From: Lysobacteraceae bacterium SCN 69-320
GTDB lineage: Bacteria > Pseudomonadota > Gammaproteobacteria > Xanthomonadales > Rhodanobacteraceae
Reading direction: 5' to 3'
Assembly (NCBI GenBank): GCA_001725155.1
Contig: MEFP01000006.1
Location: forward strand, 62,001-126,000
DNA length: 64,000 nt
In this document: positions 27,970 through 38,529 of the stretch, in pieces
Layout: the number at the start of each line of letters is the position of its first letter
How positions within the stretch are numbered: the stretch's first letter is position 1
Notes under the pieces: generated by a model
Databases searched by the model: none
Told to the model about the DNA's origin: nothing
Seen by the model: only the letters and a program-made list of their open reading frames with translations
Made by a program: the position numbers and the translations under genes

Positions 27970-28269
27970 GCAATGGCGCCTTGATGAACGGCAAAGTGTA
28001 GCAGGCAGCCTGGCCGGCGACGGTGAAGCGGCTGTCGGCGCGGATTCCGGCGCCGGAACCGGCAGATATCGCGGCGGACAGGTAGCGTTTACGTCCGCTG
28101 CGCCGTCGGACCGTTCAGATCCGCCGCAAACCGGTCGCAGGGCTGATTGCCTTATCGCCGATTCAGCCTGTTCCGGTTAAATTCTCATCAAGTCTATGGA
28201 GAAGCGCGCCCGCCCGGGTACCGGCGGGTTTCCAGCCCGCGCTTCGCCAGGTTTTTCCGGAGATGCGTA
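27970..28269. promoter_or_regulatory. Divergent intergenic region between cysS and the glycine-zipper gene
   Basis: Three hundred bases without a supportable gene. It must hold both promoters; I could not pick a -35/-10 pair with confidence. The 28170-28190 stretch is AT-rich (TTCCGGTTAAATTCTC). Confidence 0.35.
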
Positions 28270-28812
28270 ATGTCAGGTCGGGTTTTTCCGTGGTGTGCCG
28301 TTGTGCTGTCGTCGTTCCTTTCCGTTGCCCAGGCCCAGGGCGAGCGCCGCGACCTCGCCGATGAAGGCGTGCACTTCGCCTGGGCCGACGTCGTCCGCGT
28401 CGATCCGATCTATACCTACGAACGCGTCAGCCGCCCCGAGCGCGAGTGTTACGACGCCGAAGTCACGCGTCGCGACGACCGCCGCGGCAACAACACCGGC
28501 GCTACGGTTCTCGGCGCGATCATCGGCGGGGCACTGGGCAACCAGGTCGGCAAGGGCGACGGCCGCAAGGCCGCGACGATCGCCGGCGCCGTGGCCGGCG
28601 GCGCGATCGGCAACAGCGTCGGCCGCCGAGACGACGACACCTATGTCAGCAGCGAACGCCGTTGCCGCGAAGTCGACGGCGGCTACGAAGAGCGCCGCAT
28701 CAACGGCTATGACGTCGAATACCGCTATCGCGGCGAAACCTACATGTCTCGGCTGAACTACGATCCGGGCGAGCGCATACGCGTACGCGTCTCGGTGACG
28801 CCGGCCGACTGA
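28270..28812 (+). CDS. Glycine-zipper 2TM-domain protein, exported
   Basis: A 180-residue protein with a signal peptide (about 1-23, ending AQAQG) and a glycine-zipper segment at about 75-118 (GAIIGGALGNQVGKGDGRKA, then IAGAVAGGAIGNSVG), a motif found in envelope proteins of the 17-kDa antigen/RcpA-like group. The C-terminus is a charged domain (YEERRINGYDVEYRYRGETY). Likely outer-membrane or periplasmic; function not known. The ATG at 28270 follows GGAG at 28259-28262, and an upstream in-frame extension would remove the N-terminal signal character. Confidence 0.82.
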   Translation: MSGRVFPWCAVVLSSFLSVAQAQGERRDLADEGVHFAWADVVRVDPIYTYERVSRPERECYDAEVTRRDDRRGNNTGATVLGAIIGGALGNQVGKGDGRKAATIAGAVAGGAIGNSVGRRDDDTYVSSERRCREVDGGYEERRINGYDVEYRYRGETYMSRLNYDPGERIRVRVSVTPAD

Positions 28813-28912
28813 GCCGCAGATCCGGAGTCCTTTGCCTGCCGGCTGATCCCGGACCAGACGGCCGCGGGTCGGCTGGAGGGCGCTGCGCTCCGGCTGCTTA
28901 TGCTCAAGTATT

Positions 28913-28942
28913 GTTGCGCCGCGCAACGCTTCCGTGCATGAT
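28913..28942 (+). promoter_or_regulatory. Predicted arg operon promoter overlapping a palindrome
   Basis: TTGCGC (28914-28919), 17-base spacer, CATGAT (28937-28942). The -35 lies inside a perfect 15-base palindrome, GTTGCGC-C-GCGCAAC (28913-28927), which could be an operator. It is the best promoter candidate upstream of the arg leader ORF, though the -10 is weak. Confidence 0.4.
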
Positions 28943-28969
28943 CGCCCGGCCTTTTTCTCCCGCCCGCCA

Positions 28970-29074
28970 ATGACCGCGAACTATTCCGACGCCGACATCC
29001 TGACCAGCGCCCGCATGGCCGCCGGCATGACGTCGCGCGCGCGCCGACCGTTCCCGACCATCACTGCCGGGTAG
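28970..29074 (+). CDS. Putative leader peptide of the arginine operon
   Basis: An ATG-to-TAG frame of 34 codons. The last part reads MTSRARRPFPTITAG, with Arg at positions 23, 25 and 26 (codons CGC, CGC, CGA) and one earlier Arg15. It ends 30 bases before a terminator hairpin. The spacing between the Arg codons, the stop codon and the hairpin fits a classical attenuator leader. Weak points: no Shine-Dalgarno for the ATG at 28970 or for the internal ATG at 29027, and Thr/Ile codons follow the Arg codons, so the sensed amino acid is not proven. Confidence 0.45.
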   Translation: MTANYSDADILTSARMAAGMTSRARRPFPTITAG

Positions 29075-29133
29075 GTTGTCGCACAGCTTTCATCTGTATC
29101 GACGAAAAACCCGGCCTCAGCGCCGGGTTTTTT
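29066..29133 (+). promoter_or_regulatory. Candidate transcription attenuator of the arg operon
   Basis: Three mutually exclusive segments are visible. GCCGGGT at 29066-29072, overlapping the leader stop codon, can pair with ACCCGGC at 29109-29115 (antiterminator); the same ACCCGGC is the upstream arm of the terminator whose downstream arm starts at 29122. A ribosome stalled at the Arg codons (29036-29047) would leave the first segment free, while one reaching the stop would cover it and allow termination. Confidence 0.5.
29105..29133 (+). terminator. Terminator hairpin inside the arg leader
   Basis: AAAAACCCGGC (29105-29115) and its perfect complement (29122-29132) enclose CTCAGC, with a T-run to 29133. 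It ends 54 bases before the argF' start codon, so it would end transcription before the operon unless disrupted. Confidence 0.85.
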
Positions 29134-29187
29134 CTTGTTCGCAACGAACTCCCGGACACCAGGCCCACCGCCACTCCGAGGATTTCG

Positions 29188-30198
29188 ATGACCCCGCGCC
29201 ATTTCCTGAACACCAACGACTGGTCCCGCGCCGAGCTTGACGCGCTGCTGGAGCAGGCCGCCCGCTACAAGCAGAGCAAGCTCGGCCGGGAAATGGCCGG
29301 CAAGTCCATCGCACTGCTGTTCTTCAATCCGTCGATGCGCACGCGTACGAGCTTCGAACTCGGCGCGTTCCAGCTCGGCGGCCATGCGGTAGTGCTGGAG
29401 CCGGGCAAGGCGGCCTGGCCGATCGAGTTCGAACCCGGCGCGATCATGGAAGGCGACACCGAGGAACACATCGCCGAAGTCGCACGCGTGCTGTCGCGCT
29501 ATGTCGACCTGATCGGCGTGCGCGCGTTTCCGAAGTTCCAGCACTGGGAAGTCGATCGCGAGGACCGCGTGCTCAAGGCCTTCGCCCAGTACGCGACCGT
29601 GCCGGTCATCAATCTCGAGACCATCACTCATCCCTGCCAGGAACTGGCCCACATCCTCGCGCTGCAGGAGCATTTTGGTTCGCTGCAGCGCAAGAAGTAT
29701 GTGCTCACCTGGACCTATCACCCCAAGCCGCTGAATACCGCCGTGGCCAATTCGGCGCTGCTCATCGCCACCCGCTTCGGCATGGACGTGACGCTGCTGT
29801 GTCCGACGCCGGACTACGTGCTCGACGCGCGCTACATGGAGCTCGCGCAGCGCAATGCCGCCGAGAGCGGCGGTTCGCTGGCCGTCAGCCACGACATCGA
29901 AGCGAGCTACCGGGGCGCCGACGTGGTCTATGCCAAGAGCTGGGGCGCGCTGCCGTTCTTCGGCAAGTGGGAGCAGGAAAAGCCGATCCGCGAAGCGCAC
30001 CGCCATTTCATCGTCGATGAAGCCAAGATGGCGCTGACGAACAACGGCGTGTTCAGTCATTGCCTGCCGCTGCGCCGCAACGTCAAGGCCACCGACGCGG
30101 TCATGGATTCGCCGGCCTGCATCGCCGTCGACGAAGCCGAAAACCGCCTGCACGTGCAGAAGGCCATCATGGCCGCGCTGCTGAATCCGTCGCGCTGA
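29188..30198 (+). CDS. argF': N-acetylornithine carbamoyltransferase
   Basis: A 336-residue transcarbamylase that makes N-acetylcitrulline from N-acetylornithine and carbamoyl phosphate, the Xanthomonas route. The carbamoyl phosphate motif appears as [20 protein letters not shown] (STRT-type in ordinary OTCases), and position 92 is Glu within EGDTEEHI, the residue that marks acetylornithine rather than succinylornithine enzymes. [12 protein letters not shown] and the late [16 protein letters not shown] block (with the Lys that is carboxylated in the X. campestris enzyme) are present. It is the first gene after the attenuator and lies 38 bases before argG. Confidence 0.93.
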
Positions 30199-30236
30199 TC
30201 CGCGCCGCCGCTTCCGCCACTTCTGGAATATTCCCC

Positions 30237-31451
30237 ATGTCCGATACGAACAGCGCTGCCGCCAAGGACGTCGTCCTCGCGTTTTCCGGCGGTCTCGATA
30301 CGAGCTTCTGCATTCCCTATCTGCAGGAACGCGGCTACGCCGTGCATACGGTATTCGCCGACACCGGCGGCGTCGACGCCGAAGAACGCGCTTATATCGA
30401 GGTGCGTGCCGCGGAACTCGGCGCCGCGAGCCACGTGACCGTCGACGGCGGTCCGGCGATCTGGTCCGGCTTCGTCAAGCCCTTCGTCCAGGCCGGCGAG
30501 GGCTATCAGGGCCAGTACCCGCTGCTCGTGTCCGACCGCTATCTGATCGTCGAGGCGGCGCTCGCGCGCTGCGCCGAAATCGGCACGCGGCGCATCGCGC
30601 ACGGCTGCACCGGCATGGGCAACGACCAGGTCCGCTTCGACCTCGCGGTCAAGGCGTTAGGCGACTACGAAATCCTCGCGCCGATCCGCGAGATCCAGCG
30701 CGACCACAAGGAAGTGCGTGCCTACGAGCAGCAGTATCTGGAGCAGCGCGGCTTCGCCGTGCGCGCCAAGCAGAAGAGCTACACGATCAACGAGAACCTG
30801 CTCGGCCTGACCATGTCCGGCGGCGAAATCGACCGCTGGGAAGCGCCCGGCGCGGGCGCGCGCGGCTGGTGTGCGCCGCGCGCCGAATGGCCGGCGCAGG
30901 CGCTGCGGCTGCAGGTGACTTTCGAGCAGGGCGAGGCGGTGGCGCTCGACGGTGAGCGCATGGCGGGCCATGCCATCCTCGCCCGGCTCAACGCCGCGCT
31001 GGCGCCTTACGGCGTCGGCCGCGGCATCTATACCGGCGATACGACCATCGGCCTCAAGGGGCGCATCATCTTCGAAGCGCCGGGTCTGATCGCGCTGCTG
31101 ACCGCGCATCGCGCGCTCGAGGAGGCGGTACTGACGCGGCATCAGAACCGCTTCAAGCCCGAGGTCGCGCGGCGCTGGGTCGAGCTGGTCTACGAAGGCT
31201 TCTATCACGACCCGCTGAAGACCGATCTTGAAGCGTTCCTCGCTTCCAGCCAGCGCTGCGTCAATGGTACGGTCACCCTGGAAACCGACGGCGGCAACGT
31301 GCACGCGGTCGCGATCCGGTCGCCGCACATCCTCAATGCCAAGGGCGCGACCTATGCGCAGTCGGCCGACTGGGGCGTCGCCGAGGCCGAAGGCTTCATT
31401 CGCCTGTACGGCATGAGTTCCACGCTGTGGGCCGAGGTCAATCGCTCGTGA
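30237..31451 (+). CDS. argG: Argininosuccinate synthase
   Basis: A 404-residue ATP-dependent ligase joining citrulline and aspartate. The nucleotide PP-loop is [11 protein letters not shown] near residue 15; [13 protein letters not shown] and [10 protein letters not shown] follow. The ATG at 30237 starts the family's N-terminus; a longer frame inside argF' is not coding. Its stop overlaps the GTG of the deacetylase gene (GTGA, 31448-31451). In the acetylcitrulline route the citrulline comes from the next gene's product. Confidence 0.95.
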
Positions 31452-32557
31452 GCGCAGACCCTTCTCTGCTCGCACGCTGCCTGGAGCATCTGCGCGCGCT
31501 GGTTTCCTACGACACGCAGAATCCGCCGCGTGCGATCGGCACCGGCGGCATCTTCGACTACCTGCAGGCGCAGCTGCCGGGCTTTACCCATCGCGTGACC
31601 GACTTCGGCGCCGGCGCGGTCAGCCTGTATTCGGTGCGCGGCGCGCCACGCTTCCTGATCAACGTGCATCTGGACACGGTGCCGGTCACGCCGACCTGGA
31701 CGCGCAATCCGTTCGAGCTGCTGGTCACCGAGGATCGCGCGATCGGCATGGGCGCCTGCGACATCAAGGGCGCGGCGGCGGCGATGGTGGCCGCGGCGCA
31801 GGTCGCCGACGGCGACTGCGCGTTCCTGTTTTCCTCCGACGAGGAAGCCAACGACGCGCGCTGCATCGCCGGCTTCCTGGCCGAAAAGCACGCGTTCGAC
31901 GCCGTGCTCGTGGCCGAGCCGACGAAGGCCGAGGCCGTGCTCGCGCATCGCGGCATCAGTTCGGTGCGTCTGCGTTTCGCCGGTCGCGCGGGTCATGCCT
32001 CGGCGGCGAGCGCAGCCGGCGACAGCGCCGTGCATCAGGCGCTGCGCTGGGGCGAACGCGCGCTCGCGTACGCGGAGTCGCTCGCGCATCATCGCTTCGG
32101 CGGTCTGACCGGCCTGCGCTTCAACATCGGCCGCATCGAAGGCGGCATCAAGGCCAACGTCATCGCACCGTCGTGCGAAGTGCGCTTCGGCTTCCGGCCG
32201 CTGCCGACCATGTCCACGGAAGGATTGCTGGAAGCGTTCCGCACGGCCGGTCCGGCCTTGCCGGCGGAATTCGAACCCACGTTCTACGGCGCCTCGCTGC
32301 CGGCCGGCGACACGGCGGCAGCCGAAACGCGCCGGCTGGCCGCGCGCGACGTGGCCGACGAACTGGGCCTGCCGATCGGCAATGCGGTGGACTTCTGGAC
32401 CGAAGCCGCGCTGTTCTCGGCCGCCGGCCACACCAGCCTGGTCTACGGTCCCGGCGACATCGCCCAGGCGCACAGCGCCGACGAATGGGTTGCCTTGGAT
32501 CAATTGCAGCAAGTCACCGAAAGCTACGTACGGATCATTACGCATGGCCGCCACTAA
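31448..32557 (+). CDS. argE': N-acetylcitrulline deacetylase (M20 family)
   Basis: A 369-residue M20 metallohydrolase. Metal ligands appear in VHLDTVPV (His, Asp), MGACDIKGA (bridging Asp), SSDEEAND (catalytic Glu pair) and late in the [11 protein letters not shown] block. In this cluster it should deacetylate N-acetylcitrulline, made by ArgF', to citrulline for ArgG; assignment rests on the neighbours since the fold is shared with ArgE and DapE. The GTG start at 31448 is coupled to argG. Its 3' end overlaps argB by 14 bases. Confidence 0.88.
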
Positions 32558-33860
32558 GGACGTTCGCCAGACCATCGTGCGCCTGCTGTCGAGCATGGCC
32601 AGCGCCAAGGAAATCCATCAGTACCTCAAGCGCTTTTCGCAGCTCGACGCCAAGCGCTTCGCCGTGGTCAAGGTCGGCGGCGCCGTGCTGCGCGACGACC
32701 TCGATGCACTGACCTCGTCGCTGGCATTCCTGCAGCAGGTCGGCCTGACGCCGATCGTCGTGCATGGCGCCGGTCCGCAGCTCGACGAACAGCTGGCGGC
32801 CGCCGGCATCGTCAAGCAGACCGTCGACGGCTTGCGCGTGACGTCGCCCGAGGCGCTGGCCATCGTGCGCCGCGTGATGCAGAGCGAGAACCTGCGCCTG
32901 GTCGAGTCGCTGCAGACCCTCGACGTGCGCGCGACCTCGGTCGTCGGCGGCGTATTCGAGTCGGCTTATCTCGACCGCGAGCGCCTGGGCCTCGTCGGCG
33001 AAGTGCAGGGCGTCAACCTCGCGCCGATCGAGGCCAGCCTCAACGCCGGCTCGATTCCGGTCATCGCGAGCCTCGGCGAAACCGTCGGCGGGCAGATCCT
33101 CAACATCAACGCCGATTTCGCCGCGAATGAACTCGTGCAGGTGCTGCAGCCGTACAAGATCATCTTCCTGACCGGCACCGGCGGCCTGCTCGACGGCGAG
33201 GGCAGGGTCATCGACTCGATCAACCTGTCGACCGAGTACGAACACCTGATGGCGCAGCCCTGGATCAACGGCGGCATGCGCCTGAAGATCGAACAGATCC
33301 GCGATCTGCTCGACAACCTGCCGCTGGCCTCGTCAGTGTCGATCACCCGGCCGGCGGAACTGGCCAAGGAACTGTTCACGCACAAGGGCTCGGGCACCCT
33401 GATCCGCCGGGGTGAAAAGGTGCTGCGCTTCGATTCCTGGGACGGCGTGGATCAGTCGCGCCTGCGCACGCTGATCGAATCGAGCTTCGGCCGCCGCCTC
33501 GTCGAGGACTATTTCGAACGCACCGCGCCGCTGCGCGTCTACATCAGCGAGAACTACCGCACGGCCGTGATCCTGACGCTTGCCGAGGGCCTGACCTATC
33601 TCGACAAGTTCGCCGTGCTCGACGAGGCCCAGGGCGAAGGTCTCGGGCGCGCGGTCTGGCAGGTCATGCGCGAGGAAAATCCGCGCCTGTTCTGGCGTTC
33701 GCGCCACGGCAACCTCGTCAATCCGTTCTACTACGCGGAATCCGACGGCTGCTACAAACAGGAGAAATGGAAAGTGTTCTGGTACGGCTTCGGCGATTTC
33801 CCGACCATCGAGCGCTGCGTCGAGCATTGCCGCAGCCGTCCGGCGACCCTGATCGGCTGA
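32544..33860 (+). CDS. argB: Bifunctional N-acetylglutamate synthase/kinase
   Basis: A 438-residue fusion. Residues about 1-285 are an amino-acid kinase domain ([56 protein letters not shown]); about 290-438 are a GNAT-type NAT domain ([44 protein letters not shown]). The same architecture in X. campestris catalyses both acetyl transfer to glutamate and phosphorylation of N-acetylglutamate, and resembles vertebrate NAGS. It replaces separate argA/argJ functions. The ATG at 32544 overlaps the preceding gene; argC starts 10 bases after the stop. Arginine feedback on the enzyme is likely. Confidence 0.93.
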
Positions 33861-33870
33861 GGAGGCACTC

Positions 33871-34827
33871 ATGAAGACCGTAGGCATCATCGGCGCGCGC
33901 GGCCACACCGGCGCCGAGCTCATCCGCCTGATCGCCGGCCATCCAGAGCTGGAACTGGCCTTCGTCTCTTCGCGCGAACTCGACGGCCATGCCGTCGCCG
34001 ACACGGTTCCGGCATATGCCGGAACCTTGCGCTACAGCAATCTCGATGCGGATGCGACCGCGTGCGCCGACGTCGACGCCGTCGTGCTGGCGCTGCCCAA
34101 CGGCAAGGCCGCGCCCTATGTCGAGGCGATCACGGCGGCCGCGCCGCAGCGCGTCATCGTCGACCTGTCGGCCGACTACCGCTTCGACCGGCAGTGGTAT
34201 TACGGCCTGCCCGAACTCACGCGCGCGGGCTATGCCGGCCAGACCCTGATCAGCAATCCGGGCTGCTATGCGACGGCGATGCAACTCGCGATCGCGCCGC
34301 TGGTCGAGGACCTTGCCGCGCCGCCGGCCTGCTTCGGCGTGTCGGGCTATTCCGGCGCCGGCACCACGCCCTCGGACAAGAACGACACGGACAAGCTGCG
34401 CGACAACCTGATGCCGTACTCGCTGACCGGCCACGTGCACGAGCGCGAAGTCAGCGAACAGCTCGGGTTGCCGGTGGAATTCATGCCGCATGTCGCGCCG
34501 CATTTCCGCGGCATCACCCTGACTGCGAATCTCTGGCTGCGCCAGCCGACCACGCGCGAGGCCGTGCGCGAACGCTATGCGCAGCGCTATGCCGGCGAGC
34601 CGCTGGTGCGCCTCGTCGACGAGGCGCCCTGGGTCAGCCAGATCGCCGGTCGCCATCACTGCGAGATCGGCGCGTTCGCGCTGGCCAAGGGCGGCAAGCG
34701 TATCGTCGTCGTCGCCACGCTGGACAACCTGCTCAAGGGGGCCGCGACGCAGGCGTTGCAGAACCTCAATCGTGCGCTCGGATTCGACGAATTCAGCGCG
34801 ATCCAGGGCTACGGAGAACTCGCATGA
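33871..34827 (+). CDS. argC: N-acetyl-gamma-glutamyl-phosphate reductase
   Basis: A 318-residue NADPH-dependent reductase, third step of arginine synthesis. The nucleotide motif is [13 protein letters not shown], and the thioester Cys132 lies in [13 protein letters not shown]; the HVHEREV and HVAPHFRGI blocks hold the general-base His. Length fits the family. GAGG precedes the start at 33871 and the stop overlaps argH by four bases. Confidence 0.95.
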
Positions 34828-36122
34828 GCGGACTGCTCTGGCAGAAGGAAGGTGTGGAAGTCGATCCGCGCATCATGCGCTTCCTGGCCGGCGACGACGT
34901 GCTGCTCGATCGCGAGCTGTTCCTGCACGACGTGCAGGCGAGCAAGGCGCATGTCGAAGGTCTGGCGCGGATCGGCCTGCTCGATGCGGGCGAGTGCGCG
35001 GCGCTGCTGCGCGAGCTCGATTGTCTCGCCGAGGATTTCTCGTCCGGCAGCTTCGTGCTCGATGAGCGCTACGAGGACGGCCATTCGGCGATCGAGGCGC
35101 GCCTGACCGAACGCCTCGGCGATGCCGGTCGCAAGGTGCATACAGGCCGCAGCCGCAACGACCAGGTGCTGGTCGCTTCGAGGTTGTGGCTCAAGGCGCA
35201 GTTGAACGAGCTGATCGCGTACTGCACCGGTGCGGCGCGCGCCTGTCTCGACCGCGCCGCGGCCGAGTCGCTGCCGATGCCGGGCTATACGCATCTGCAG
35301 CGCGCCGTGGTGTCGTCGACGGCGATGTGGTTCGCCGGTTTCGCCGAGGCCTTCATCGACGATGCGCGCCGCGCGCGCGACACGCTCGCGCTGATCGACG
35401 CGAACCCGCTCGGCACGGCCGCCGGCTACGGTGTCAATCTGCCGCTGGACCGCGATTTCACGACGCAGCGTCTCGGCTTCGCTCGGCTGCAGGTGTCGCC
35501 GATCTATGCGCAGCTGTCGCGCGGCAAGTTCGAGCTCGCCGCGCTGGACGCGCTGGCCTCGGCATTGCTCGACCTGCGCCGGCTGGCCTGGGACCTGAGC
35601 CTGTTCACGACGGCCGAATACGGTTTCGTCGCCTTGCCGGCGGCGTATACGACCGGCTCGTCGATCATGCCGAACAAGCGCAACCCGGACGTGATCGAAC
35701 TGATGCGCGCGAGCTATGCGGCCGTGGCCGCGGCGCGCTGCGAGGTCGAACAGCTGCTGTCGCTGCCGTCGGGTTACCAGCGCGATCTGCAGTTCAGCAA
35801 GGGCTCCATCGTGCACGGCTTCGGTCGCGGGCTGGCGGCGCTCGCGTTGCTGCCGGACCTGTTGCGCGCGTTCGCCTGGAATGCCGATGCATTGGCCTCG
35901 GCGATCGAACCGGCCATGTACGCAACCGACGTCGCGATCGAGCAGGCCGCCGCCGGCGTGCCGTTCCGCGATGCGTATCGCCGGGCAGCGGAAACTGCGG
36001 CGAGCGCCGGGGAAGGGCGCAGCCCGCAGGCCAGCCTCGCCGCGCGCGTGTCGCCGGGCGGCGCGGCCGATCTGCGGCTCGGTGAGCTCGAGGCGCGCTG
36101 GCAGGCGCTGGCCGTCGCATGA
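34824..36122 (+). CDS. argH: Argininosuccinate lyase
   Basis: A 432-residue lyase releasing arginine and fumarate. Superfamily signatures are [20 protein letters not shown], and the flexible catalytic loop [12 protein letters not shown]. The N-terminus [20 protein letters not shown] and the shorter total length than E. coli ArgH look like the Xanthomonas type. The ATG at 34824 overlaps the argC stop and its own stop overlaps proB, both by four bases. Confidence 0.95.
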
Positions 36123-37270
36123 GACCTCTGCATGCGGAACAGGCGTTGCCGCGCTGGCGTCGCGCCGTGCTCAAGGTCGGCAGCAGCCTGCTCGCGGCCA
36201 ACGGCGGCGGGCTCAGCACGCGTCATGCACTGGGCCTCGCCGAGTTCATCGCGGCCAGCCATCGCGCCGGCCGTGAGATCGTGCTCGTGTCCTCGGGCGC
36301 CGTTGCGGCCGGCCGCTCGCTGGTGCGTGCGCAGCCCGAAGCGGCGCATGGCCTGGCCGCGCGTCAGGCGCTCGCAGCGCTCGGCCAGACCACCGTCGTC
36401 GCACTGTGGCAGCGCTTCTTCGACCGGCCCGTTGCGCAGGTGCTGCTGACTCATGACGACCTGCGCAATCGTCGCCGCTATCTGAATGCGCGGGCAACCC
36501 TGCGCGAGCTGCTGAATCTCGGCGCGCTGCCGATCATCAACGAGAACGACACGGTCGCCGTCGACGAGCTCAAGCTCGGCGACAACGACAACCTCGCCGC
36601 GATCGTCGCCGCGCTCGTCGATGCCGACCTGCTGCTGATCGCCAGCGACATCGCCGGCCTGTATTCGGCCGACCCGCGCAGCGACGCGGATGCCGAACCG
36701 GTCAACGAAGTCGCCGCAGTGACGCCGGCCATCCTGGCCATGGCCGGCGGTGCCGGCACGGCCGCGGGTACCGGCGGCATGCGCACCAAGCTCGACGCGG
36801 CGGTCAAGGCTGCCACGGCCGGTATCGGCACCGTGCTGTTCGACGGCACCGACGCGCAGGCACTGCGCCTGCTCGCGGTCGATCGTCTGCGCGGCACGCA
36901 TTTCCTGGCCGGCGCGACGCGCCTGCAGGCGCGCAAATACTGGCTGCGCCATGCGCCGCTGGCCGGCGGCCGCATCCAGGTCGATGCGGGCGCGGCACGC
37001 GCGCTGCTCAGCGGCGGCGCTTCGCTGCTGCCGGGCGGCATCGTCGGCGTCAGCGGCGATTTCGCGCGCGGCGACATGGTGGAGATCGAGACCGCGCGCG
37101 AGGCCGGCGCGGCCATCGTCGCGCGCGGCATCAGCCAGTATGCCGCCGGCGAAGTGCGCCGCATCGCCGGGCGCAAGTCGGCCGACATCGAGCCCGTGCT
37201 CGGCTATAGCTACGGCGAGACCGTCGTTCACCGCGACGACCTCGTCGCCACCAGCGGAGCGGAAGCATGA
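36119..37270 (+). CDS. proB: Glutamate 5-kinase
   Basis: A 383-residue enzyme for the first step of proline synthesis. The N-terminal amino-acid kinase domain (about 15-260) carries [36 protein letters not shown] and [12 protein letters not shown]; the C-terminal about 285-370 is a PUA domain ([20 protein letters not shown]). Proline feedback inhibition is usual for the family. It is coupled to argH and proA by ATGA overlaps, placing proline and arginine synthesis on one transcript, sharing glutamate as precursor. Confidence 0.95.
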
Positions 37271-38529
37271 CGACGAGCGTGCGCGAACAAGCCCTGGCCT
37301 GCCGCCAAGCGGCTCAGGCCATCGCCGAACTCGATGCGGCCGCGCGCCGCCGCCTGCTGGAGGGCATGGCCGACGCATTGGCCGCCGACGAGGCGGCGAT
37401 CCTCGGCGCCAACGCGCAGGACATGGCCGCGGCCGCTGCGCGCGGCACCGCGCCGGCGCTGCTCGATCGCCTGCGTCTGGATGCGGCCCGTCTCGCGGCG
37501 ATGGTCGCCGGCGTGCGCCACGTTGCCGGTCTGCCGGATCCGGTCGGCCAGGTCACGCGCAGCGAACGGCGCGCCGACGGCCTGCTGATCGAGCGCGTGC
37601 GCGTGCCGCTCGGCGTCGTCGCGATGATCTACGAGGCACGTCCGAACGTGACTGCGGATGCGGCCGCGCTTTGCCTCAAGGCCGGCAACGGCGTGATCCT
37701 GCGCGGCGGCTCCGAGGCGCAGCAGTCCAACCGTGCGATTGCCGCGGCGCTGGCCCGGGCGCTGACTGCCTGCGGCATCAGCCCGGCCGCGGTCAGCGTG
37801 CTCGCGGACCTGCGCCGCGAGAGCATGATCGAGCTGCTGCAGCTCAGCGACATCGTCGACCTCGCGATTCCGCGTGGCGGCGAAGGCCTGATCCGCTTCG
37901 TCGCCGAGCATGCGCGCGTGCCGGTCATCAAGCACTACAAGGGTGTCTGTCACCTGTTCGTCGATGCGAGCGCCGACGACGCACTCGCGCTGGGTCTGCT
38001 GATCGACGGCAAGACCACGCGTCCGGCGGTCTGCAATGCATTGGAGACCTTGCTCGTGCATGCCGACATCGCGCCGCGCTGGCTGCCGCAGGCCGCGGCC
38101 GCCTTGCAGGCGCGCGGTGTGGAACTGCGCGGCTGCGAACGTGCGCGTGCCCTGGTGCCGGCGATGAAGGAAGCCACGGATGCGGACTACGCGGCCGAGT
38201 TCCTCGATCTGATCCTGGCCGTGCGCGTGGTCGACGATGTCGAACAGGCGATCGCGCATATCCGCCGCTACGGCTCCGACCATACCGAAGTCATCGCCAC
38301 GGGCGAGGAGCGCCAGGCCCGGCGTTTCGTGCAGGCGCTGCGCTGCGCCGTCGTCATGGTCAACGCGTCCTCGCGCTTCAGCGACGGCGGCGAACTCGGC
38401 CTCGGTGCCGAGATCGGCATTTCGACGACGCGCCTGCATGCCTACGGACCGATGGGCGCCGAATCGCTGACGATCGAGCGCTATGTGGTGCGCGGCACAG
38501 GGCAGGTGAGGCACCCGACGTCGCGCTGA
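37267..38529 (+). CDS. proA: Gamma-glutamyl phosphate reductase
   Basis: A 420-residue aldehyde-dehydrogenase-superfamily enzyme reducing glutamyl-5-phosphate to the semialdehyde. Visible are [44 protein letters not shown], the catalytic Cys in [14 protein letters not shown], and [20 protein letters not shown]. It closes the arg-pro operon. No clear terminator with a U-tract follows. Confidence 0.96.

Follow-up and report, generated by a model that had tools for sequence, protein, structure and literature searches.

A predicted ribosome-mediated attenuator of the arginine operon upstream of argF' in Tahibacter and its relatives

A candidate arginine attenuator upstream of argF'

Positions 28913–29133 of the 64,000-nt stretch analysed in this study (the window; contig MEFP01000006.1 of Lysobacteraceae bacterium SCN 69-320) precede argF', which encodes N-acetylornithine carbamoyltransferase. 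The host, which has a genome of 5.7 Mb, belongs to the genus Tahibacter of the family Rhodanobacteraceae and the order Lysobacterales (Xanthomonadales in older use). Judging from this sequence and its relatives, the element is probably (ca. 0.86) a ribosome-mediated transcription attenuator that would silence the arginine operon under arginine excess. Attenuation had been proposed in a preliminary description of the window, and support for it came from the conserved open reading frame (ORF), its Arg codons, the pairings, a promoter-like element, and the Arg-run leaders of sister families. The features of the leader are as follows.

28914–28942, + strand: promoter-like element TTGCGC - 17 nt - CATGAT (pattern conserved upstream of the leader in relatives)
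28970–29074, + strand: leader ORF of 34 codons, MTANYSDADILTSARMAAGMTSRARRPFPTITAG, with Arg at 15, 23, 25, and 26 and TAG at 29072–29074 (read from the sequence; conserved in relatives)
29024–29047, + strand: codons of the core GMTSRARR (exact in 69 of 70 loci fetched by ArgF', GMTSRAHR in the other one)
29045–29047, + strand: CGA, the last core Arg codon and proposed stall codon (codon counts over loci)
29066–29072, + strand: 5' arm of the antiterminator (arm 2), GCCGGGT, covering the last two codons and the first stop base (sequence, fold, and relatives)
29076–29105, + strand: inner helix of the antiterminator, 29076–29081/29100–29105 and 29083–29086/29094–29097 (fold of 29061–29118; weakly backed by relatives)
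29104–29133, + strand: intrinsic terminator with arm 3 at 29104–29115, loop at 29116–29121, and arm 4 with T-run at 29122–29133 (sequence and fold)

In the proposed mechanism, RNA polymerase would initiate shortly before the leader ORF, with a ribosome trailing behind it. When charged tRNA-Arg is scarce, the ribosome would stall on the Arg-Ala-Arg-Arg codons, most likely on the slow CGA, with its front edge ending slightly before arm 2; arm 2 could then pair with arm 3, no terminator would form, and the operon would be read. When arginine is abundant, the ribosome would proceed over arm 2, arm 3 would pair with arm 4, and transcription would terminate 54 bases before argF'. The nascent peptide may contribute to the stall in the clade of the window, which is the least certain step. 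We infer the stall position, the dependence on arginine, and the direction of the response.

Conservation of the leader ORF

The previously described 34-codon ORF with Arg at 23, 25, and 26 was borne out, and Arg was additionally present at 15. No Shine-Dalgarno sequence was visible before the leader ATG, as had been stated; this fits the nearly leaderless ORF of the set B loci described below. The Thr-Ile-Thr codons, formerly listed as a weak point, are present in the window and are not conserved in relatives.

We sampled 70 upstream regions (L001–L070) from 219 family genomes with ArgF', picked via ArgF' and genus while the leader was ignored. The leader ORF was upstream of argF' in all 70 loci, and [AS]GMTSRARR was encoded at the expected site in 69, the remaining locus (L035) having GMTSRAHR. 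A peptide profile built from 13 leader peptides was searched in 398 genomes of the order (E ≤ 0.01) and matched in 271: 125 of f1, 128 of f2, 3 of f3, 7 of f4, and 8 weak matches by hand count. Here f1–f12 denote groups of genomes in the collection used; f1 includes Tahibacter, and f2 presumably corresponds to Lysobacteraceae/Xanthomonadaceae, judging from the Xoo5 matches described below. ArgF' was found in 356 of the 398 genomes, including all profile-matching genomes of f1, f2, and f3, and the profile matched every ArgF'-bearing genome of these groups (125/125, 128/128, and 3/3, respectively; the site before argF' was verified for part of them). In f4, 6 of the 9 genomes with ArgF' had a profile match; G235 of this group has a divergent leader, ASMTSRARRT, with CGT as the last Arg codon, and in the ArgF'-bearing G281 and G299 the contig stops within or shortly before the gene. 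The 8 weak matches fell in f5, f8, f9, f10, and f12, and the motif was absent from the five that were read (L222, L223, L225, L227, and L228). The weak matches L221–L228 and L230 were dropped for lack of the motif, and L229 was dropped as a chance match in the reading frame of another gene. Outside the order, 4 of 274 genomes of the class matched; three of these are in fact members of the order, and no such leader was seen on reading the remaining one (L234). Exact GMTSRARRP occurred in 431 places of genome contigs, and the best 80 of the 431 were titled as Lysobacterales genera or unplaced metagenome-assembled genomes.

The loci were grouped into set A (L001–L100; 89 distinct loci, 88 of f1), set B (L101–L210; 97 distinct loci, mostly of f2/Lysobacteraceae, with some of f3, f4, Rhodanobacteraceae, and unplaced genomes), and set C (L211–L220; 10 loci). 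L071–L130 and L211–L220 were fetched by the peptide profile and L131–L210 by exact GMTSRARRP. A motif search placed argF' immediately 3' of the leader in 193 of the 196 distinct loci, and inspection by eye did so in the remaining 3. Arg codons, as control codons for the end product, were present in all 196 motif-selected loci and in 17 of 19 sister-family loci. In seven f4 loci (L107, L211, L215, and L217–L220), the leader stop occurs within one to four codons after the core, so that the peptide needs neither its variable tail nor the final Ala-Gly. L214, from an f2 genome of 2.8 Mb, has a diverged leader, AMASGMTSRARRPYES, and an arm 2 of only 5 pairs; it may be a switch undergoing decay in a genome of reduced size.

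Alternative pairings of the leader RNA

The terminator described earlier consists of 11 Watson-Crick pairs and one G-T pair, the end of its T-run is separated by 54 bases from the argF' ATG (29188), and its hairpin reached −20 kcal/mol in a fold of 29087–29140. GCCGGGT was found over the leader stop as claimed, where 0.02 occurrences are expected in 131 nt of equal composition. Its alternative pairing with the terminator arm was reproduced by folding: the isolated antiterminator (29061–29118) formed 7 + 6 + 4 pairs at −23.7 kcal/mol (z = −4.7), and none of 200 shuffles equalled it. With arm 4 present and arm 2 free (29061–29140), the energy model favoured the terminator, so that antitermination would depend on timing, as is usual for attenuators. 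The full leader (28913–29140) folded no better than usual (z = −1.14; 26 of 200 shuffles as good). A minimum-free-energy pairing of arm 2 with 28934–28950 was discarded because this partner lies at or upstream of the predicted transcription start.

Among the motif-bearing loci, the terminator was present in 219 of 220 (L196 has merely 35 nt past the match; L229 was excluded). The arm 2 pattern G[CT]YGG[GAC]T, anchored on the stop codon, was found in 168 of the 196 distinct loci; arm 2 starts GCCGGGT in 81 of 89 set A loci and GCTGGGT in 66 of 97 set B loci, and pair counts confined to these loci were given no weight. The third base of arm 2 and its partner in arm 3 formed a standard pair in 163 of the 168 (C-G, 94; U-A, 60; U-G, 9), with a C-A mismatch in 5, and the triplets across arms 2, 3, and 4 were C-G-C (94), T-A-T (60), T-G-C (7), T-G-T (2), and C-A-T (5). 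The bases of arms 2 and 3 were thus strongly associated (Fisher p of about 1e-29). The best pairing of arm 2 with arm 3 exceeded dinucleotide shuffles at p ≤ 0.05 in 150 of 196 loci.

Arm 2 started 21 nt after CGA in 158 of 196 loci and within 16–24 nt in 192 (standard deviation [sd], 1.9), and 6 nt before the stop in 166 (range, −12 to +24; sd, 3.5). Given the usual size of the ribosome footprint, the distance between CGA and arm 2 would roughly match the reach of the front edge of a ribosome held at CGA. In 18 loci with the stop elsewhere, arm 2 started 16–23 nt from CGA and −12 to +8 nt from the stop, and the pairing had p ≤ 0.05 in 8 of them (L060, L103, L107, L117, L165, L170, L212, and L215). 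GCTGGG(T) lies at or behind the stop in L060, L103, L107, L117, L165, and L212 and is thus retained as RNA. In set A (85 loci), RNAalifold predicted pairing of the Arg-codon stretch with arm 2 and the bases that follow arm 2, a helix that would occupy the place of the classical 1:2 hairpin; it was not predicted in set B (97 loci). The spacer compared with its shuffles gave a mean z of 0.0 in set A (2 of 89 loci at p ≤ 0.05) and −1.1 in set B (25 of 97).

Constraint on the peptide core and its codons

Because the other loci were fetched through the peptide, the invariance of the core is to be judged on L001–L070. The last core Arg codon was CGA in all 70 of these unbiased loci and in 194 of the 196 distinct loci; among the 2909 Arg codons of the argF' genes at 151 loci, 32 are CGA. 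The two exceptions (L217 and L219) have CGA as the following codon; a divergent leader outside the 196 loci (L307) has CGT at the last core Arg and no CGA next to it. CGA is poorly read and caused strong de-attenuation in a his-leader reporter, according to the accessible part of the source (PMC4046918). The other two core Arg codons were each CGY in 195 of 196 loci; one CGA and one His codon made up the exceptions. The core Ser codon (29033–29035) was TCG in 194 of 196 distinct and 69 of 70 unbiased loci, other Ser codons being possible. A mini-hairpin UCG..CGA, predicted by RNAalifold in set B, was rejected (mean of −2.63 kcal/mol vs −2.51 kcal/mol for random synonymous codings).

On an argF' protein tree of 151 tips, the eight core codons underwent one amino-acid change, compared with 19 in the quietest eight-codon run of the first 90 argF' codons, and Ala at −5 and −2 of the core was likewise unchanged. 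The third positions of the core G, T, R, A, and R codons changed 29, 30, 23, 22, and 27 times, respectively (argF' mean, 24.4), while the first two positions of these five codons changed once in total; TCG and CGA changed once each. Thus, the DNA drifts at the pace of argF' and the peptide hardly does, a nearly synonymous-only drift as in a short translated leader ORF, for which translation is predicted from the sequence. Since 121 of the 151 tips were found via the peptide, the step count is biased low, and the 70 unbiased loci gave the same pattern.

The near-frozen peptide with drifting third positions, together with the rare CGA, suggests that the nascent chain aids the stall. A nascent-chain-assisted arginine sensor may have evolved from an ordinary Arg-run leader in Lysobacteraceae (Xanthomonadaceae) and Rhodanobacteraceae. 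In such a sensor, the near-frozen AxGMTSRARR would slow the ribosome and three Arg codons, the last almost always CGA, would be enough; we propose this tentatively, at a little less than even odds. The peptide might also have no role, being conserved through RNA structure or low divergence in a plain attenuator driven by codon starvation. This account fits the constraint on TCG, CGA, and the CGY codons and the helix predicted in set A, and it sits poorly with third positions that drift at the pace of argF' beside almost unchanged first and second positions, with the lack of that helix in set B, and with a mini-hairpin no stabler than random synonymous codings. We regard it as a serious possibility that falls somewhat short of an even chance.

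A leader acting as an arrest peptide would sense a small molecule in the ribosome, arginine or a pathway intermediate, rather than charged tRNA-Arg, and the RNA parts would be unchanged. The single step in the core, its 22–30 third-position changes, and the constant Ala residues are what such a peptide would show. The low bias of the step count tempers this agreement, plain Arg runs in variable peptides of the sister families speak against it, and, unlike in stop-codon arrest, the residue behind the core (P, L, R, or C) and the stop position vary; an arrest peptide is therefore unlikely. As for the signal of the attenuator, tRNA charging and free arginine would look alike in the sequence.

Promoter-like element and relation to Xoo5 RNA

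A promoter-like pattern, TTGnnn-N16–18-nAnnnT, occurred upstream of the leader in 88 of 89 set A, 96 of 97 set B, and 3 of 10 set C loci (4.4% in mononucleotide shuffles). In 74 of 88 set A loci, 24–28 nt separate the end of the −10-like box from the leader start that follows, compared with 7–10 nt in 88 of 96 set B loci, so that the leader ORF appears to be nearly leaderless in set B. A strict sigma-70 scan did not report the element at 28914–28942, and a simple scanner reported no promoter and no terminator in 28500–29500, the terminator probably being missed because its stem absorbs the T-run. These negative scans are what would be expected of an ordinary terminator of upstream transcription lying next to a chance ORF with no regulation; as the ORF, CGA, arm 2, and the promoter-like element are all conserved, this is highly improbable.

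The Rfam model RF02242 (sRNA-Xoo5) matched the window at 31.3 bits (E = 7.4e-5), under its gathering score of 50; the window thus contains a related element that is no member by Rfam's rule. In 12 of 20 loci of relatives tested, the match was above the cut-off, always on the leader and with up to 144 bits (L123/L124). As far as the accessible part of the original report goes, Xoo5 was cloned from Xanthomonas oryzae as a 124-nt RNA with a 5' end mapped by rapid amplification of cDNA ends (RACE), and it is flanked by PXO_00354 and, after it, by PXO_00353, which is named N-acetylornithine carbamoyltransferase there (Liang et al. 2011, PMC3039613). Northern blots in that report showed two early transcripts, of ~130 and ~100 nt, of which the shorter alone was seen later. 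The 124-position model starts with CUAUG, which places the inferred 5' end 2 nt before the leader AUG. Transcripts starting past 29133, named earlier as a case that would refute attenuation, are made less probable by this mapped 5' end of the Xanthomonas homologue. If attenuation is correct, it would provide a candidate function for the orphan small RNA RF02242, to which no purpose had been assigned. In a mutant of a different small RNA (sRNA), Xoo1, table 4 of the same report shows argininosuccinate synthase and N-acetylornithine carbamoyltransferase to be down-regulated.

The label "sRNA Xoo5" implies that a short RNA or peptide acts in trans, which would be compatible with attenuation. Its entry as an sRNA visible on Northern blots (PMC3039613) and the precedent of the leader peptide peTrpL (PMC7298713, accessible part) make such action conceivable. 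The leader stands before argF' in all 196 distinct loci, arms 2, 3, and 4 would serve a role in cis, and Xoo5 was counted among the likely Hfq-independent RNAs, its deletion giving no phenotype in the available part of PMC3039613; we consider trans action quite unlikely.

Arg-run leaders in sister families and the distribution of ArgR

We read the argF' locus in 22 genomes of f4–f11, and 19 loci of f5–f11 had sufficient upstream sequence. By eye, a short ORF with an Arg run followed by a terminator was present in 17 of the 19 (not in L312 and L316), and a script recovered the terminator in 15 of the 16 loci supplied to it. The runs (e.g., VVVRRRRP, NPRRRRV, and LRRRRM) are embedded in residues that vary across the set. 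CGA made up 21 of 85 Arg codons in these leaders and 24 of 309 in their argF' genes (p = 6e-5). Because Arg-run leaders occupy the same place in the sister families, Arg codons are likely the common sensor and arginine the likely signal; arginine-codon attenuation appears to be old within the order. The sister families and the window's clade would form a natural series at one gene, from codon-run leaders to a near-frozen peptide, allowing the roles of the codons and the nascent chain to be told apart experimentally. In L315, the end of the Arg-run leader occurs twice (at about 1170 and 1356, 186 nt apart), with N behind the first copy, through either tandem duplication or an assembly fault.

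The sister-family leaders were used in place of three other controls. RF00514 (His-leader) matched weakly in 9 of 59 family genomes, in no case above the cut-off; a His-run ORF before hisG was seen in one of 29 loci and judged a chance occurrence; and ilv leaders before ilvC were too few (3 of 27 loci). The last are leader ORFs with LLVLVLIT/LVVLVLIT runs in L292, L294, and L300, all of f2.

PF01316 (ArgR) was not found in the window's own genome. It was detected in 8 of 200 genomes of the order, every one in f12, and ArgF' was found in none of the 9 f12 genomes among those profiled; in this sample, ArgR and the leader are mutually exclusive. Attenuation would explain how arginine synthesis could be controlled in families without ArgR.

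Observations weighing against attenuation

Several observations count against the attenuator proposed here. The covariation of arms 2 and 3 mostly reflects the split between Rhodanobacteraceae and Lysobacteraceae (C in 87 of 87 such f1 loci; T in 46 of 50 such Lysobacteraceae loci). Parsimony on 126 tips required 6 changes for arm 2 and 10 for arm 3, and a test of independent pairs was not significant; L060, an f1 locus with an early stop, carries GCTGGGT/ACCCAGC/GCTGGGT and adds a covariation event beyond this parsimony count. Conservation across relatives, which the preliminary description had named as a check, holds for the ORF, the Arg codons, and both pairings, with covariation coming from few independent events. 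The pairing of arm 2 was above p = 0.05 in 46 of 196 loci, including 10 of the 18 shifted-stop loci, and unanchored alignments failed to recover the antiterminator. The commonest distance of arm 2 from the stop is shared by more loci (166) than that from CGA (158), though the latter varies less. In the sister families, a mechanical ORF test (ATG, three Arg in five) was positive in 14 of 19 loci on the sense strand and in 6 on the antisense strand (7.4% in mononucleotide shuffles), indicating that such short ORFs are not rare by chance. According to the accessible part of PMC3039613, the Xoo5 deletion strain grew like the wild type in rich and minimal medium, and the flanking genes were reportedly unaffected; attenuation would predict arginine shortage in this strain if the terminator was left in place. 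The Xoo5 bands of ~130 and ~100 nt in that source are also shorter than the 159 nt expected to the T-run.

The argF' cluster and its neighbourhood

The genes downstream of the leader are argF', argG, argE', an argB-type acetylglutamate kinase gene, argC, argH, proB, and proA, in this order; they are presumed to form one operon.

29188–30198, + strand: argF' (N-acetylornithine carbamoyltransferase), which opens the presumed operon (NF003384, 611 bits; cut-off, 288)
30150–38529 (outer reading-frame limits), + strand: argG, argE', argB-type acetylglutamate kinase gene, argC, argH, proB, and proA (NCBIfam matches)

The argH match (270.7 bits) was slightly below its NCBIfam cut-off (279.5). A gene matching NF008437 lies upstream of the leader at 28147–28812, and a similar reading frame is found upstream of argF' in L060 and L312; the neighbourhood therefore seems to be conserved.

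Comparison with known systems

Among the literature matches listed, judged by titles and abstract openings with few subscription journals covered, we recognised no arginine attenuator for this operon. Xoo5 shares the genomic place before the N-acetylornithine carbamoyltransferase gene and the sequence family with the leader, but it is typed as an sRNA, and the words arginine, argF, and leader occur 0 times in the main text of PMC3039613. The speF leader of Salmonella contains ORF34 (DUF2618/PF10940), a 34-codon upstream ORF whose consecutive Arg codons sense arginine; its target is polyamine synthesis, and it acts by way of Rho, RNase G, and the accessibility of the ribosome-binding site, no intrinsic terminator having been found there (PMC6386406, available part). 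The leader in the window resembles it in the length of the ORF and the consecutive Arg codons, whereas it precedes arginine-making genes and has an intrinsic terminator. Two of our leader peptides matched no Pfam family at E ≤ 1, and thus not DUF2618/PF10940. ArgR serves the same regulatory task, but is a protein repressor, absent from our searches of the window's own genome and confined to f12 among the 200 genomes.

The His, Trp, Leu, Ilv, and Thr attenuators comprise a leader ORF with codons for the end product, an antiterminator, a terminator, and a stop codon beside arm 2. The window's leader is arranged in the same way and differs in that the amino acid is arginine, only three Arg codons lie in the control region, the non-regulatory residues are near-frozen, and a 1:2 helix is predicted for set A alone. 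The arginine attenuator peptide of fungi stalls the ribosome at its own stop codon under high arginine. Both are conserved upstream peptides before an arginine gene, but the stop position is not conserved in the leader family of the window, which speaks against stalling at the stop codon. If the nascent-chain-assisted sensor is real, it would be a bacterial counterpart of the fungal peptide by convergence, with the codon-run form persisting in the sister families.
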